Shown in pieces: positions 55,062 to 59,997 of a DNA stretch of 64,000 nt; positions within the stretch are counted from its first letter, which is position 1, and every line of letters starts with the position of its first letter. The notes beneath the pieces are model-generated. The model was not told the origin of the DNA. It saw only the letters and a program-made list of their open reading frames with translations, and ran no database searches. The stretch comes from Desulfurellaceae bacterium (lineage in GTDB: Bacteria > Desulfobacterota > Binatia > Bin18), in contig JAGWBB010000004.1 of NCBI GenBank assembly GCA_021296095.1, forward strand, positions 51,590-115,589, given 5' to 3'. A program made the translations under genes and the position numbers.

Positions 55062-57083
55062 ATGTTACAGCTGACCGATCTCTCTCTGGCCTTTGGCGGC
55101 CAGAAACTCTTTCACAAGCTCAACTGGCAGCTCAACAGGGGTGACCGGGTCGGTCTGGTCGGTCCCAACGGCGCCGGCAAAACAAGCCTGTTCCGGCTGA
55201 TGATGGGTCAGCTCGAACCGGACACTGGGCGGGTTCAGCATGGCCGCGAAATCAGCCTCGGCTACCTCCCCCAGGAGGGTGCGCCGATTGGCGGACGCAG
55301 CCTGTTTGAAGAAGCCCGCTCGGCCCTGCCGGAGTTGGGCGCCATCCAGCGCGAGCTGGCCCGTCTGCACGCCGTCCTTGAGACCGAGGATCAAACCCAA
55401 ACGACCGACAGCCTGGCCCGCTACGGCCAGCTCCAGCACCGTTTTGAGGAGCTGGGCGGCTGGTCCGCCGATGCCCAGGTGGCCAAGGTGTTAAGCGGGC
55501 TGGGCTTCCACCAGGAACAGTTCGGCTGGCCAAGCGAGGTCTTCAGCGGCGGCTGGCAGATGCGCATCGCCCTGGCCAAACTGCTGCTCCAAGGCCCGGA
55601 TATCCTGCTGTTGGACGAGCCGACCAACCATCTGGACCTCGACTCCGTGCTGTGGCTCGAAGGCTATCTGTGCGGCTATGCGGGCAGCGTGATCATCGTC
55701 TCCCACGACCGCCGGTTTCTCGACCGGACTGTGACCCGCATCGCCGCCATCCACCGCCACAGCCTGAGCGACTATACCGGGAATTACTCGGCCTTCGAGC
55801 GTCAGTTTGCCCAGACCCTGGAGGCCGACCGCAAAGCCTATGAGGAGCAGCAGGCCGAGATCGAACGCATCACCCGTTTCATCAACACCTTCCGCTATAA
55901 CGCGCGCAAGGCCACCCAGGTCCAGAGCCGCGTCAAGCAGCTGGAGAAAATGGCACGCCTGCCCGCCCCCCAGACCCCTCCCAGCGGCGTCCGCTTCCAC
56001 TTTCCGCGTGCCCCGCGCAGCGGCCGGGTCGTACTGGAGTTGAAAGGGGTCGGCAAGCACTACGACAAGGTGGCTGCTCCGAACCATTCCAGCGAGAAGA
56101 GCGGCGCATTCGCCTCGCAAGTCCAGGTTTTCAACAATCTCGATCTGACCATTGAGCGTGGCGACCGGATTGCCCTGCTGGGCGTGAACGGGGCGGGCAA
56201 ATCCACCCTGAGCCGGCTGCTGGCCGGGACCGAAGCGCCGAGCTGCGGGCAACGTGTGCTGGGCTATCAGGTGGTGCTCGATTTTTATGCCCAGCAACAG
56301 ACGGACAAACTCACCACCGACCGCAGCGTGTACCAAGAGATCGCCAGCCGGGCGGCCTTCGATGTCGTGCCCCAGCTGCGGACTTTACTGGGGGCGTTTT
56401 TGTTTTCCGGTGAGGCGGTTGACAAACCGGTGACGGTGCTGAGCGGCGGCGAAAAGAGCCGGCTGGTCCTGGCCAAGATGCTGCTCCAGGCCTCAAACTT
56501 TCTGATCCTGGACGAGCCGACCAACCATCTGGATCTGCGGACCAAGGAGGTGCTGAAACAGGCCCTCCAACAGTTCAGCGGCACCTTTGTGCTGGTCTCG
56601 CACGACCGCGATTTTCTGGACGGTCTGGTGACCAAGGTGATAGAGCTGCAGGACGGCCGGCTGGTGAGCTACCCGGGCTCGTTTGAAGCCTTTGTGGCCC
56701 GCAAGGAACGCGAGGCGGGCGGGGAGGGGGAAAGTCAAAAGTCAAAAGGCCAAGGGCAAATGGCAAAGACGGGCGGCGCCGAGGAGGTACTCAGCGCCGT
56801 TCGCCAGGCCAAGCGCGGCAAGGCGCTCCAGGTTCGGCAGAAAGCCGCCCGCGCCCAGCGCTCCAGGCAGGAGCGGCGCATGGCGGAAACCGAACGGCGG
56901 ATCGCCGAGCTGGAGGAACAGCAGCGGGCGGTCGAGGCGCTGATGGCAGACCGCAGTGTCTACACCGCTCCTCAGCGGGCCAGGGAAATCGCGACCGAGT
57001 ACGACACGCTCAAACGGGAACTGGAAGAACACTACGCGAGCTGGAGTGAGCTGGCCGAGGAACTGGACGGCGAAACCGGCTGA
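55062..57083 (+). CDS. ABC-F family ATPase with repeat-derived linker insertion
   Basis: The 673-residue tandem ATPase has no membrane segment. Domain 1 has GPNGAGKTSLF, FSGGWQMR and LLLDEPTNHLDLDS. Domain 2 has GVNGAGKST, LSGGEKSRLVLAKM and LILDEPTNHLDLRT. The signature and arm resemble the YheS (EttA/Uup-related) group, acting on translating ribosomes. A low-complexity ESQKSKGQGQMAKT segment (about residues 557-570) is encoded by the CAAAAGGC repeat and lies between the second ATPase domain and the C-terminal coiled coil (QKAARAQRSRQERRMAETER). The reading frame is kept. Confidence 0.92.
   Translation: MLQLTDLSLAFGGQKLFHKLNWQLNRGDRVGLVGPNGAGKTSLFRLMMGQLEPDTGRVQHGREISLGYLPQEGAPIGGRSLFEEARSALPELGAIQRELARLHAVLETEDQTQTTDSLARYGQLQHRFEELGGWSADAQVAKVLSGLGFHQEQFGWPSEVFSGGWQMRIALAKLLLQGPDILLLDEPTNHLDLDSVLWLEGYLCGYAGSVIIVSHDRRFLDRTVTRIAAIHRHSLSDYTGNYSAFERQFAQTLEADRKAYEEQQAEIERITRFINTFRYNARKATQVQSRVKQLEKMARLPAPQTPPSGVRFHFPRAPRSGRVVLELKGVGKHYDKVAAPNHSSEKSGAFASQVQVFNNLDLTIERGDRIALLGVNGAGKSTLSRLLAGTEAPSCGQRVLGYQVVLDFYAQQQTDKLTTDRSVYQEIASRAAFDVVPQLRTLLGAFLFSGEAVDKPVTVLSGGEKSRLVLAKMLLQASNFLILDEPTNHLDLRTKEVLKQALQQFSGTFVLVSHDRDFLDGLVTKVIELQDGRLVSYPGSFEAFVARKEREAGGEGESQKSKGQGQMAKTGGAEEVLSAVRQAKRGKALQVRQKAARAQRSRQERRMAETERRIAELEEQQRAVEALMADRSVYTAPQRAREIATEYDTLKRELEEHYASWSELAEELDGETG
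56727..56770 (+). repeat. CAAAAGGC-type interspersed repeat inside the ABC-F gene
   Basis: The sequence reads AAAGTCAAAAGTCAAAAGGC, then CAAGGGCAAATGGCAAAGAC. It is in-frame within the ABC-F gene and has an A-rich composition unlike the flanking codons. It is the same family as the copies at 15501 and 19945. Confidence 0.65.
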
Positions 57084-57096
57084 AAGGACACACGAG

Positions 57097-58080
57097 ATGC
57101 GCATAGGATTGGGGCTGCCGCCGCTGGGCATGGCGATGGACTTGTGCTCCGAGATCGTCCGGCGGGCGGAATCGGCCGGGTTTGACAGCGTATGGGTCGG
57201 CGAAGCCTGGGGCACCGAAACCTGTACCATGGTCGGGGCGCTGCTGGCCCGCAGCCAGCGCATTCACATCGGCACCGGCATTGTCTCGCTCTACCTCCGC
57301 CCGCCGACCCTGACCGCCATGCAGGCCGCCACCCTCGACCTGATCGCGCCGGGTCGAGCCCGGCTCGGCCTGGGGGTCAGCACCCGCAACATCAATACCT
57401 TCCACGGTCTGGACTGGGATTTTCCGCTGGCCCGGACGCGCGAGTACGTGAGCCTGCTGCGCCGGCTGCTGGCCGGAGAACGCGTCAGCCACGAGGGCCG
57501 CTTTTACCGGCCCCAAGGCTTTCAGCTGAGCGTCCCGGCGCCGCGCCAGATGCCGATTTATCTGGCGGCGGTCAATCCCAAGATGCTCCAGCTAGCCGGA
57601 GAGATTGCCGACGGCGTGCAGCTGGCCTGGCTGCCGGCCCGCCAGGTGCCGCACTCGCTGGCGGAAATCGCCAAGGGCGCCCAGCGCGCCGGACGGCGTG
57701 TGGAAGACCTCGATATCGGCTGTTACATCCATACCATGGTGACCGACGACCGGCAGCGGACGCTTGAGCAGCTGCGGCGCATTCTGGTCGGCTACTGCCA
57801 GGCCAACACCTATATTCAGGGCTTTCGGCGTTTTGGCTACGGCGAGATTCTCGACCAGGTCCACGCCTACTGGCGGGCCGGAGACCGGGCCCAGGCCCAG
57901 GCCGCCATCCCTGACGAGATGGTGGAAGACCTGTACATCTTTGGTACGGCCGAGGAGTGTCACGCCCGGCTTGAGACCTTCACCCGGGCCGGGCTGAACC
58001 TGGCCGTGGTTGCCGCCCCGCCGACCAGCCGGCTCACCCCGGACGACCTGCGCACCCTGGTCGACGCGTTTGCCCAGTGA
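57097..58080 (+). CDS. LLM-class flavin/F420-dependent oxidoreductase
   Basis: The 327-residue luciferase-like barrel has MRIGLGLPPLGM, AESAGFDSVWVGEAWGTETC, IHIGTGIVSLYLRPPTLTAM, RARLGLGVSTRNINTFHGLD and LAAVNPKMLQLAGEIADGVQ. The sequence resembles F420-dependent methylene-tetrahydromethanopterin reductase-like proteins. The substrate is unknown. It is between the ABC-F gene and the rhodanese-cyclase gene on the same strand. Confidence 0.9.
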   Translation: MRIGLGLPPLGMAMDLCSEIVRRAESAGFDSVWVGEAWGTETCTMVGALLARSQRIHIGTGIVSLYLRPPTLTAMQAATLDLIAPGRARLGLGVSTRNINTFHGLDWDFPLARTREYVSLLRRLLAGERVSHEGRFYRPQGFQLSVPAPRQMPIYLAAVNPKMLQLAGEIADGVQLAWLPARQVPHSLAEIAKGAQRAGRRVEDLDIGCYIHTMVTDDRQRTLEQLRRILVGYCQANTYIQGFRRFGYGEILDQVHAYWRAGDRAQAQAAIPDEMVEDLYIFGTAEECHARLETFTRAGLNLAVVAAPPTSRLTPDDLRTLVDAFAQ

Positions 58081-58137
58081 GTGCTTGCCACAGCCCCGCG
58101 AAGCGATCAGACTGGGCTCTGACACGGAGGAAGAGCG

Positions 58138-59151
58138 ATGGCCAGTCAAGCCAACCCAGCGGAGGTCTTACGGATCTGCCCCCAGGCGCTGCACGCCCGT
58201 ATGACCGACGGAGAAGCGGTCGTTCCAATTGACGTGCGGACCACCGACGCCCGCCTGTTCCTGCCCGTCCAGCTGCCGAACACGCGCTGGCTGCCCATCG
58301 CCGAGATCGTGCAACAGGCGCACACCTTGCCCCGGGAGATTCTGCTGGCGCTGTATTGAACCTGACCCGAGGATGCGAGCAGCGCCCGGGCGGCGCTATG
58401 GTTACAAGCCGAAGGGTTTCAGTCGGTTGTCGTTCTGGCCGGCGGTCTCACCGCCTGGCAGGCGGCCGGCTACCCGACCGTCTCGCTGGATCAGGCGCAG
58501 TCCCCGGCCCCGCATGCCGAACCCTCGCCCGCAGTCCGGACGCCGGGCCACGCCCATACGTTTTTGCCCGGTCTGGCCCAGAGCTATATGTCGCAGGACA
58601 GCGCGCCGATCAAAAAAGAACTCACCGTGGTCTTTGTTGACATTGCCAACTCGACCTCCACCATTGTCAACCAGTCGCCCGAGCGTGCCTTGGACCTGGT
58701 CCAGGGCTTCATGGCCATGGTGACCGAAATCGCCCTGGAAAATTGCGGCGACGTCAAAGACTACGAGGGCGACGGCGCTCTGCTGTATTTTGAGTCGGTG
58801 ACCGAAGCCGTGCGCGCCGCCCTGGCCATCCGCACAGCCCTGGCCGACAGCCGGTCCGAGAACGGCCAACCCGGCCTGCAAGCCCGCATCAGCCTCAACC
58901 TGGGCGATATCATCATCGGCGTGATCGGGGTGGCCATGCGTCGCTCGGTGGCCCTGATCGGCCCGAGCATCAATCTGGCCTCGCGGCTGCTCAAGCACGT
59001 CCCGCCCGGCGGGATCATCGCTACCCAGGCCGCGCTGGAGCGGCTGAGCCGCGAAACGCCGGCCCTGGCCGAGCGGTTTCAGCTCCTGGACCAGCGCCTG
59101 GAACTCAAAGGTTTTGAGAACGAGTATGTCAGCACCTTTCATATTCCCTAG
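58138..59151 (+). CDS. Probable selenoprotein: rhodanese domain with two in-frame UGA codons fused to a class III nucleotide cyclase
   Basis: GGAGGAAG precedes the ATG. The frame runs 73 codons, meets UGA (74, 58357-58359), Thr, and UGA (76, 58363-58365). It then stays open for 261 codons to 59151. Around the UGAs it reads LLALY-UGA-T-UGA-PEDASSARAALWLQ. Rhodanese relatives have YCxCPxExxSAR here, so both UGAs replace the two Cys. The rhodanese domain (about 20-130) continues with VVVLAGGLTAWQAAGYP. A Pro-rich linker joins it to a cyclase (about 161-337): FVDIANST (Asp168), YEGDGALLYF (Asp212) and LIGPSINLASRLL. A hairpin 15 bases after the second UGA could be a SECIS. I infer selenocysteine at both sites. 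The alternative is two coincident nonsense mutations. Confidence 0.75.
58381..58397 (+). promoter_or_regulatory. Candidate bacterial SECIS hairpin
   Basis: AGCGCC (58381-58386) and GGCGCT (58392-58397) form a perfect six-base-pair stem around the five-base loop CGGGC. The loop lies 22 bases after the second UGA and 28 after the first. Bacterial SECIS elements need an apical stem-loop at about that distance with a G in the first two loop positions; here it is the second. It overlaps codons of the conserved ASSARAAL segment. Confidence 0.55.
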
Positions 59152-59163
59152 AGGAGCAGCCCT

Positions 59164-59997
59164 ATGAGCACCCGTGTTGGTTTTATTGGTCTGGGCAATA
59201 TCGGCAAACCCATGGCCCTCAACGTCGCCAAGGCCGGCTTTGACCTGATGGTCTACGACCTGCGCGAAGAACCGCTGGCCGAGCTGGCTGCGGCCGGGGC
59301 CAAGACGGCCCGCTCGGCCCACGAGATCGGCGCCCACGGCGACATCATCGAACTCGTTGTGGTCGATGACGCCCAGGTCGAAGCCGTGACCCTGGAAGAG
59401 GGCGGCGTGCTGAGCGGCGCCCAGCCCGGCAGTGTGATCGCCGTCCACAGCACCGTCCATCCCCGCACCATCCGCAAACTGGCCGAGCTGGCCGGGGAAC
59501 GCGGGGTGAGCGTGATTGACGCCGAGGTCAGCGGTGGCGAGCGCGGCGCCCAGGCCCAGACCCTGTGCTACATGGTCGGCGGCGACGCGGCCGCGTTTGA
59601 AAAATGTCGGCCCGTGTTCGAGACCTCGGGAGCCAACATTTTCCATCTGGGCGAGCTGGGCATGGGCGCGATGGCCAAGCTGGCCCACAACCTGATCGTC
59701 TACGTCAACATGCTGTCGGCCTCCGAGGGCATGCGGCTGGCCGAAACCGCCGGGCTGGACCTCAACGCCTTCCAAGAAGTGGTCAAGGCAGGCGCCGGGC
59801 AGAGCCGGGTGGCCGGCAACTGGCTGGCCCAGCGCAACTTCAAAGACACCTATACCAGCGGCCCGGACGCCCTGGTGCAGCTGATGCACAAAGACCTGCG
59901 GCTGGCCCTGGAGCTGGGCCACGATGTGGGCGTCAGCCTGCCCGGCGCGGCCCTGGCCCAGCAGCTGATCGAACGCTTCCTGGGCATCAAGGAGTAG
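59164..59997 (+). CDS. 3-hydroxyisobutyrate dehydrogenase-family NAD(P) oxidoreductase
   Basis: The 277-residue beta-hydroxyacid dehydrogenase has VGFIGLGNIGKPMALNVAKA (cofactor), DAEVSGGERGAQ (substrate), and the catalytic Lys in GAMAKLAHNLIVY. KDLRLALELGHDVGVSLP closes the helical domain. The family oxidises 3-hydroxyisobutyrate, tartronate semialdehyde or similar. GAGGAGC precedes the ATG, and it lies 12 bases after the rhodanese-cyclase gene, so the two are probably co-transcribed. Confidence 0.9.
   Translation: MSTRVGFIGLGNIGKPMALNVAKAGFDLMVYDLREEPLAELAAAGAKTARSAHEIGAHGDIIELVVVDDAQVEAVTLEEGGVLSGAQPGSVIAVHSTVHPRTIRKLAELAGERGVSVIDAEVSGGERGAQAQTLCYMVGGDAAAFEKCRPVFETSGANIFHLGELGMGAMAKLAHNLIVYVNMLSASEGMRLAETAGLDLNAFQEVVKAGAGQSRVAGNWLAQRNFKDTYTSGPDALVQLMHKDLRLALELGHDVGVSLPGAALAQQLIERFLGIKE

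Follow-up and report, generated by a model that had tools for sequence, protein, structure and literature searches.

Introduction

The closest described counterpart of the protein considered here is the rhodanese subtype NF041203 (rhodanese_LYCAU), a rhodanese-related (seleno)protein listed as "rhodanese form 3, CxU, 1 Sec" (PMC13188914). The forms of rhodanese distinguished in the same 2026 review are UxxS, UxxG, CxU and UxxxxU, with no UxU form and no cyclase among them (PMC13188914). The UxxxxU form is that of TsoB (NF045694, rhodanese/DsbD fusion-like), which is likewise a rhodanese fusion with two Sec residues (PMC13188914). For bacterial SECIS elements, the published limits are an apical loop of 3-9 nt, a stem of 4-16 bp, a G in the first two loop positions, a distance of 16-37 nt between the UGA and the loop, and a minimum free energy of at most -7.5 (PMC13188914).

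Here we describe a gene from a window of 64,000 nucleotides (the whole stretch of DNA that was analysed) which, judging from its sequence and that of its homologs, very probably encodes one protein with two Sec residues, U74 and U76, in a rhodanese domain joined to a cyclase-like domain. In the open-access literature, the combination of UXU and selenoprotein yielded only a mention of metal binding in SELENOP, and nothing relevant was found for a rhodanese-cyclase fusion.

Results

Reading frame and homologs in the family

The preliminary description placed two in-frame UGA codons in the rhodanese part, followed by an open frame, and predicted that an annotation pipeline would report a fragment of 73 residues and a lone cyclase. 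Both statements are borne out by the sequence: there is a single frame of 337 codons running from an ATG to a TAG (59149-59151), codons 74 and 76 being TGA (Table 1), and ordinary ORF calling splits it into a 73-aa fragment and a 195-aa cyclase. Annotation that stops at UGA conceals proteins of this kind. In the read-through frame, the Pfam Rhodanese match (PF00581; 2.3e-7, 31.6 bits against a gathering cut-off of 22.2) covers both UGAs, and the C-terminal part matches Guanylate_cyc (PF00211; 2.7e-10, 40.6 bits against a gathering cut-off of 21.9). The active-site motif reads Y-U-T-U-P-E-D-A-S-S-A-R.

Table 1. Features of the locus, in window coordinates, with the evidence for each assignment.
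Feature	Coordinates	Strand	Basis
ABC-F ATPase, conserved farther upstream, normal TGA stop	55062..57083	+	named from two-ATPase layout
LLM-class (luciferase-like, F420/FMN) oxidoreductase, conserved upstream neighbour	57097..58080	+	
Shine-Dalgarno-like GGAGGAAG before ATG 58138	58126..58133	+	sequence
Predicted UxU rhodanese-cyclase gene	58138..59151	+	sequence, domain matches on read-through frame, homologs
Rhodanese domain, residues 16-110	58183..58467	+	Pfam; model and PDB fold matches
UGA 1, predicted Sec74, canonical rhodanese catalytic-Cys position	58357..58359	+	sequence, homologs; Cys in G005
UGA 2, predicted Sec76, Sec position common to single-Sec CxU relatives	58363..58365	+	sequence, homologs
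SECIS-like hairpin with a stem of 6 bp (AGCGCC/GGCGCU) and the apical loop CGGGC (58387-58391)	58381..58397	+	comparison; constraints of PMC13188914
Class III cyclase-like domain, residues 159-312 (Pfam; model covers 156-337)	58612..59073	+	Pfam; PDB match to CyaC; residues
3-hydroxyisobutyrate / 2-hydroxy-3-oxopropionate dehydrogenase-like, conserved downstream neighbour	59164..59997	+	

Sixteen genomes of the window's bacterial family were examined. The fusion was observed in the window's own genome (G000) and in G001, G004, G005 and G006; G003 has a truncated copy, the contig ending within the gene. The motif is UTU in five of these copies (G000, G001, G003, G004, G006) and CTU in G005, that is, the first position is occupied by Sec or Cys and the second one by Sec. 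Identity of the full-length fusions to the window protein is 95% for the copy from the same genus, 61% for G005, and 60% and 55% for the other two. An alignment of homologs had been suggested as a check on the Sec reading, and in this subtype it reveals Cys or UGA at both positions and no unrelated residues. Sequencing error is excluded, since an independent MAG of the same genus has both UGAs at the same codons of its gene, whose product is 95% identical.

The genes for ABC-F, the LLM oxidoreductase, the fusion and the dehydrogenase follow one another in this order in five genomes, the last gene lying beyond the contig end in G003. Among 395 genomes sampled from the phylum, no rhodanese-cyclase fusion was found beyond those of the window's family.

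The cyclase-like domain

Both folds are present in an AlphaFold model based on 36 sequences (mean pLDDT 87.7), which replaced an earlier model from five sequences (pLDDT 53.6). In that earlier model, the rhodanese half matches PDB rhodaneses, and the best PDB fold match of the C-terminal half is CyaC (1wc0, E 1.5e-15).

Class III cyclases recognize the purine by Lys and Asp/Thr in the adenylyl type, and by Glu and Cys in the guanylyl type. Compared with CyaC, the window domain retains the metal Asps (D168, D212) and the transition-state residues (N279, R283), all of them invariant in the five full-length fusions, whereas the purine-site Lys and Thr are replaced by Asp (D208) and Ala (A272), which corresponds to neither type; the input domain is also different, being a predicted Sec-rhodanese. 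Hence the earlier claim of a complete class III cyclase holds for the fold and the metal residues, but not for the canonical purine-recognition residues. In rhodanese-less sister cyclases from the same family the catalytic Asn is replaced by His or Ser. Given this loss and the atypical purine residues, the C-terminal domain may be inactive as a cyclase.

The sister cyclase of G003 (L015:695-3173) is flanked by genes for an enzyme of the ArsI/CadI type and for the arsenite exporter ACR3, and those of G009 and G011 (L090:5254-8054 and L089:7839-9961) are in a run with genes for the ECF sigma factor SigZ and for DUF2703, a relative of the "DF family (seleno)protein". This suggests, by association only, that the cyclase clade is tied to thiol, selenol or metalloid stress. 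The metalloid link comes from the sisters, and the neighbors of the fusion gene itself encode ordinary oxidoreductases.

If the two halves of the protein act together, the rhodanese would be a sensor coupled to the cyclase, a reading that is quite conceivable, if tentative. Alternatively, the rhodanese with its two Sec residues could be a catalyst or a metalloid- or selenium-binding site, and the cyclase-like domain could be dead or serve as a non-signalling nucleotide-binding partner. The latter variant is possible and agrees with the atypical purine site and with the position of the Asn-less sisters next to arsenic and DUF2703 genes; the invariance of D168, D212, N279 and R283 in the full-length fusions speaks against it.

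Selenocysteine machinery of the genome

In the genome to which the window belongs (4.3 Mb in 185 contigs; completeness 96.9%), we searched for the machinery required by the Sec reading, and this machinery proved to be complete: selA (517 bits), selB (C-terminal SelB domain, 74 bits), selC and selD are all present. The tRNA-Sec gene, with the anticodon UCA (ARAGORN), directly adjoins selA, and selD (L049 / G000:C46:5964-6899) directly follows selB. The selD gene has an in-frame TGA of its own, and the SelD of this genome likely contains Sec itself. Reassignment of UGA in the genetic code is ruled out, as the adjacent ABC-F and LLM oxidoreductase genes stop at TGA.

Rhodaneses with UxU and CxU motifs elsewhere in the phylum

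The Cys of the YC motif in classical rhodaneses is the catalytic one, and the first Sec of the window protein aligns with this Cys of the ordinary rhodaneses of the class. Most relatives have the CxU motif, with the second position being a constant Sec. NF041203, the best NCBIfam match of the window protein, is the same rhodanese subtype with the same second Sec position, but in the window protein the first Cys is also replaced by Sec, and the rhodanese is fused to a cyclase-like domain. Against the NF041203 cut-off of 115 bits the window protein scores 58.8, and its homologs from G005 and G006 score 83.5 and 66.4, respectively; the Cys/Sec-x-Sec loop of NF041203 is represented by UTU in the window protein and by CTU in G005.

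A UxU pattern matched the window's own gene and rhodaneses of the families f18, f24 and f26, whose four UxU proteins score above the NF041203 cut-off. Altogether, outside the window's family, UxU rhodaneses were observed in f18, f24, f26 and f72 (L110, L103, L098, L108, L115). Like the window gene, they have Sec codons at both positions and the same hairpin, but none is joined to a cyclase: those of f24, f26 and f72 are stand-alone, and in f18 (L103:1228-2835 and L110:201-1805 from two genomes) the fusion partner is a multihaem cytochrome c region. The f18 cytochrome regions have weak matches to hydrazine dehydrogenase and to the DmsE family. Two other candidates, L053 and L054, were rejected as off-frame chance matches.

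The Sec pair in a rhodanese tied to a cyclase had been presented as having no known described example. In the open-access literature this stands for the fusion, but the pair itself is not unique to it, given the UxU proteins of the four families. In a tree of 25 domains the UxU label changes three times, at least two of these changes being forced by well supported branches, and from these sequences the first UGA is seen to be kept or regained in separate clades.

Two side observations concern the single-Sec proteins (L061, L062 and other loci of the class). CxU rhodaneses with one Sec are widespread in the class, and in G057 a membrane protein frame, DedA-like as judged by eye, ends in a CSUP Sec-rhodanese.

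A common SECIS-like hairpin

The Ser-Ala-Arg-Ala-Ala codons after the second UGA form a hairpin (Table 1) that begins 15 nt past this UGA, its loop starting 21 nt after UGA 2 and 27 nt after UGA 1. With a 5-nt loop, a stem of 6 bp, these two distances and -11.3 kcal/mol (58374-58404), it lies within the published limits for bacterial SECIS elements. When folded freely, the 48-nt stretch of the window prefers a competing structure and is no more stable than shuffled sequences (z about 0); therefore, the case for a SECIS is a comparative one.

In all 19 copies compared, the second position of the loop is G and the third one is G or U. Among 17 Sec rhodaneses 93% of the pair cells are standard, and in six of them the third pair from the outside is changed from C-G to U-A, the substitution being two-sided, synonymous and compensatory. 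At least five Watson-Crick pairs are formed in 18 of 19 Sec genes; in 4000 sets with randomized synonymous codons this number averages 0.71 and never exceeds 5, although no strict P value can be assigned, as the genes are related. No such stem was found in the one Cys/Cys homolog examined. Five more Sec copies were considered: three (L067, L115, L119) have 6-7 pairs, and inspection of the sequences showed that the stem of L063 includes a G-U pair and that L120 needs a shift of register to form one. The SECIS expected by the preliminary description is thus represented by a hairpin that fits the published bacterial model and is kept by synonymous codons. We predict that it is a bacterial SECIS serving both UGAs, with SelB binding.

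If only the second UGA were efficiently decoded as Sec and the first one mostly terminated translation, selenium would gate the amount of the cyclase, and little of the two-Sec protein would be made. The second position is indeed the one common to single-Sec relatives, at the usual 21-nt spacing, and two UGAs multiply the losses. On the other hand, the 27 nt to the first UGA are within the published 16-37 nt (PMC13188914), and retention or regain of this UGA in separate clades would not be favored if it were a pure cost. We consider predominant termination at the first UGA unlikely. That both UGAs encode Sec is highly probable.

Selection across the UGAs

In the comparison with the same-genus copy, the part preceding the UGAs has a dN/dS of 0.20 and the rhodanese part that follows them one of 0.065; the linker is at 0.43 and the cyclase at 0.092 (Nei-Gojobori; the values are approximate, as there are few changes per region). 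Purifying selection persists downstream of both UGAs. Since dN/dS is low after the UGAs, translation must go on through both of them. A pseudogene is ruled out by these values together with the synonymous constraint. It is very improbable that the gene is broken, or is in fact two genes, a 73-aa peptide ending at the first UGA and a cyclase translated from an internal start, even though ORF calling gives exactly such a split and lone cyclase relatives exist in the same family, as the stretch between the UGAs and the internal starts is among the best conserved ones (dN/dS 0.065, with an invariant ASSARAALWLQAEG-type block), both UGAs are retained across several genera, and synonymous codons maintain the hairpin.

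Discussion

For a single protein with two Sec residues, the following scheme may be proposed. SelB and tRNA-Sec would decode both UGAs via one SECIS hairpin, placing U74 at the site of the rhodanese catalytic Cys and U76 two residues further, in the same active-site loop. With the substrate, the loop would likely form a selenenyl-sulfide or persulfide, or a Se-Se or Se-S pair, or bind a soft metal(loid). The class III cyclase-like domain, which needs dimerization to work, would be the output, and the redox, persulfide or metalloid state of the loop would set its activity. The protein could then be a selenium switch, where the two-Sec loop reads the status of persulfide, selenium or metalloids and exerts direct control over an output domain of the cyclase family, and synthesis is gated twice by selenium via two UGAs and one SECIS; we put this forward as a tentative possibility.

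Of the described rhodanese fusions with two Sec residues, TsoB differs from the window protein in the Sec spacing and the partner domain, and the window protein has no match to NF045694. The gene adds a doubly Sec-containing, as predicted, rhodanese active site and a fusion of a selenoprotein with a cyclase domain to the prokaryotic selenoproteome. As Sec recurs at the catalytic position of rhodaneses, the reason why a second Sec is favored there can be put to the test, and so can the use of one SECIS for two UGAs six nucleotides apart. With such a fusion, a cell could couple its signalling to the chemistry of sulfur, selenium or metalloids.
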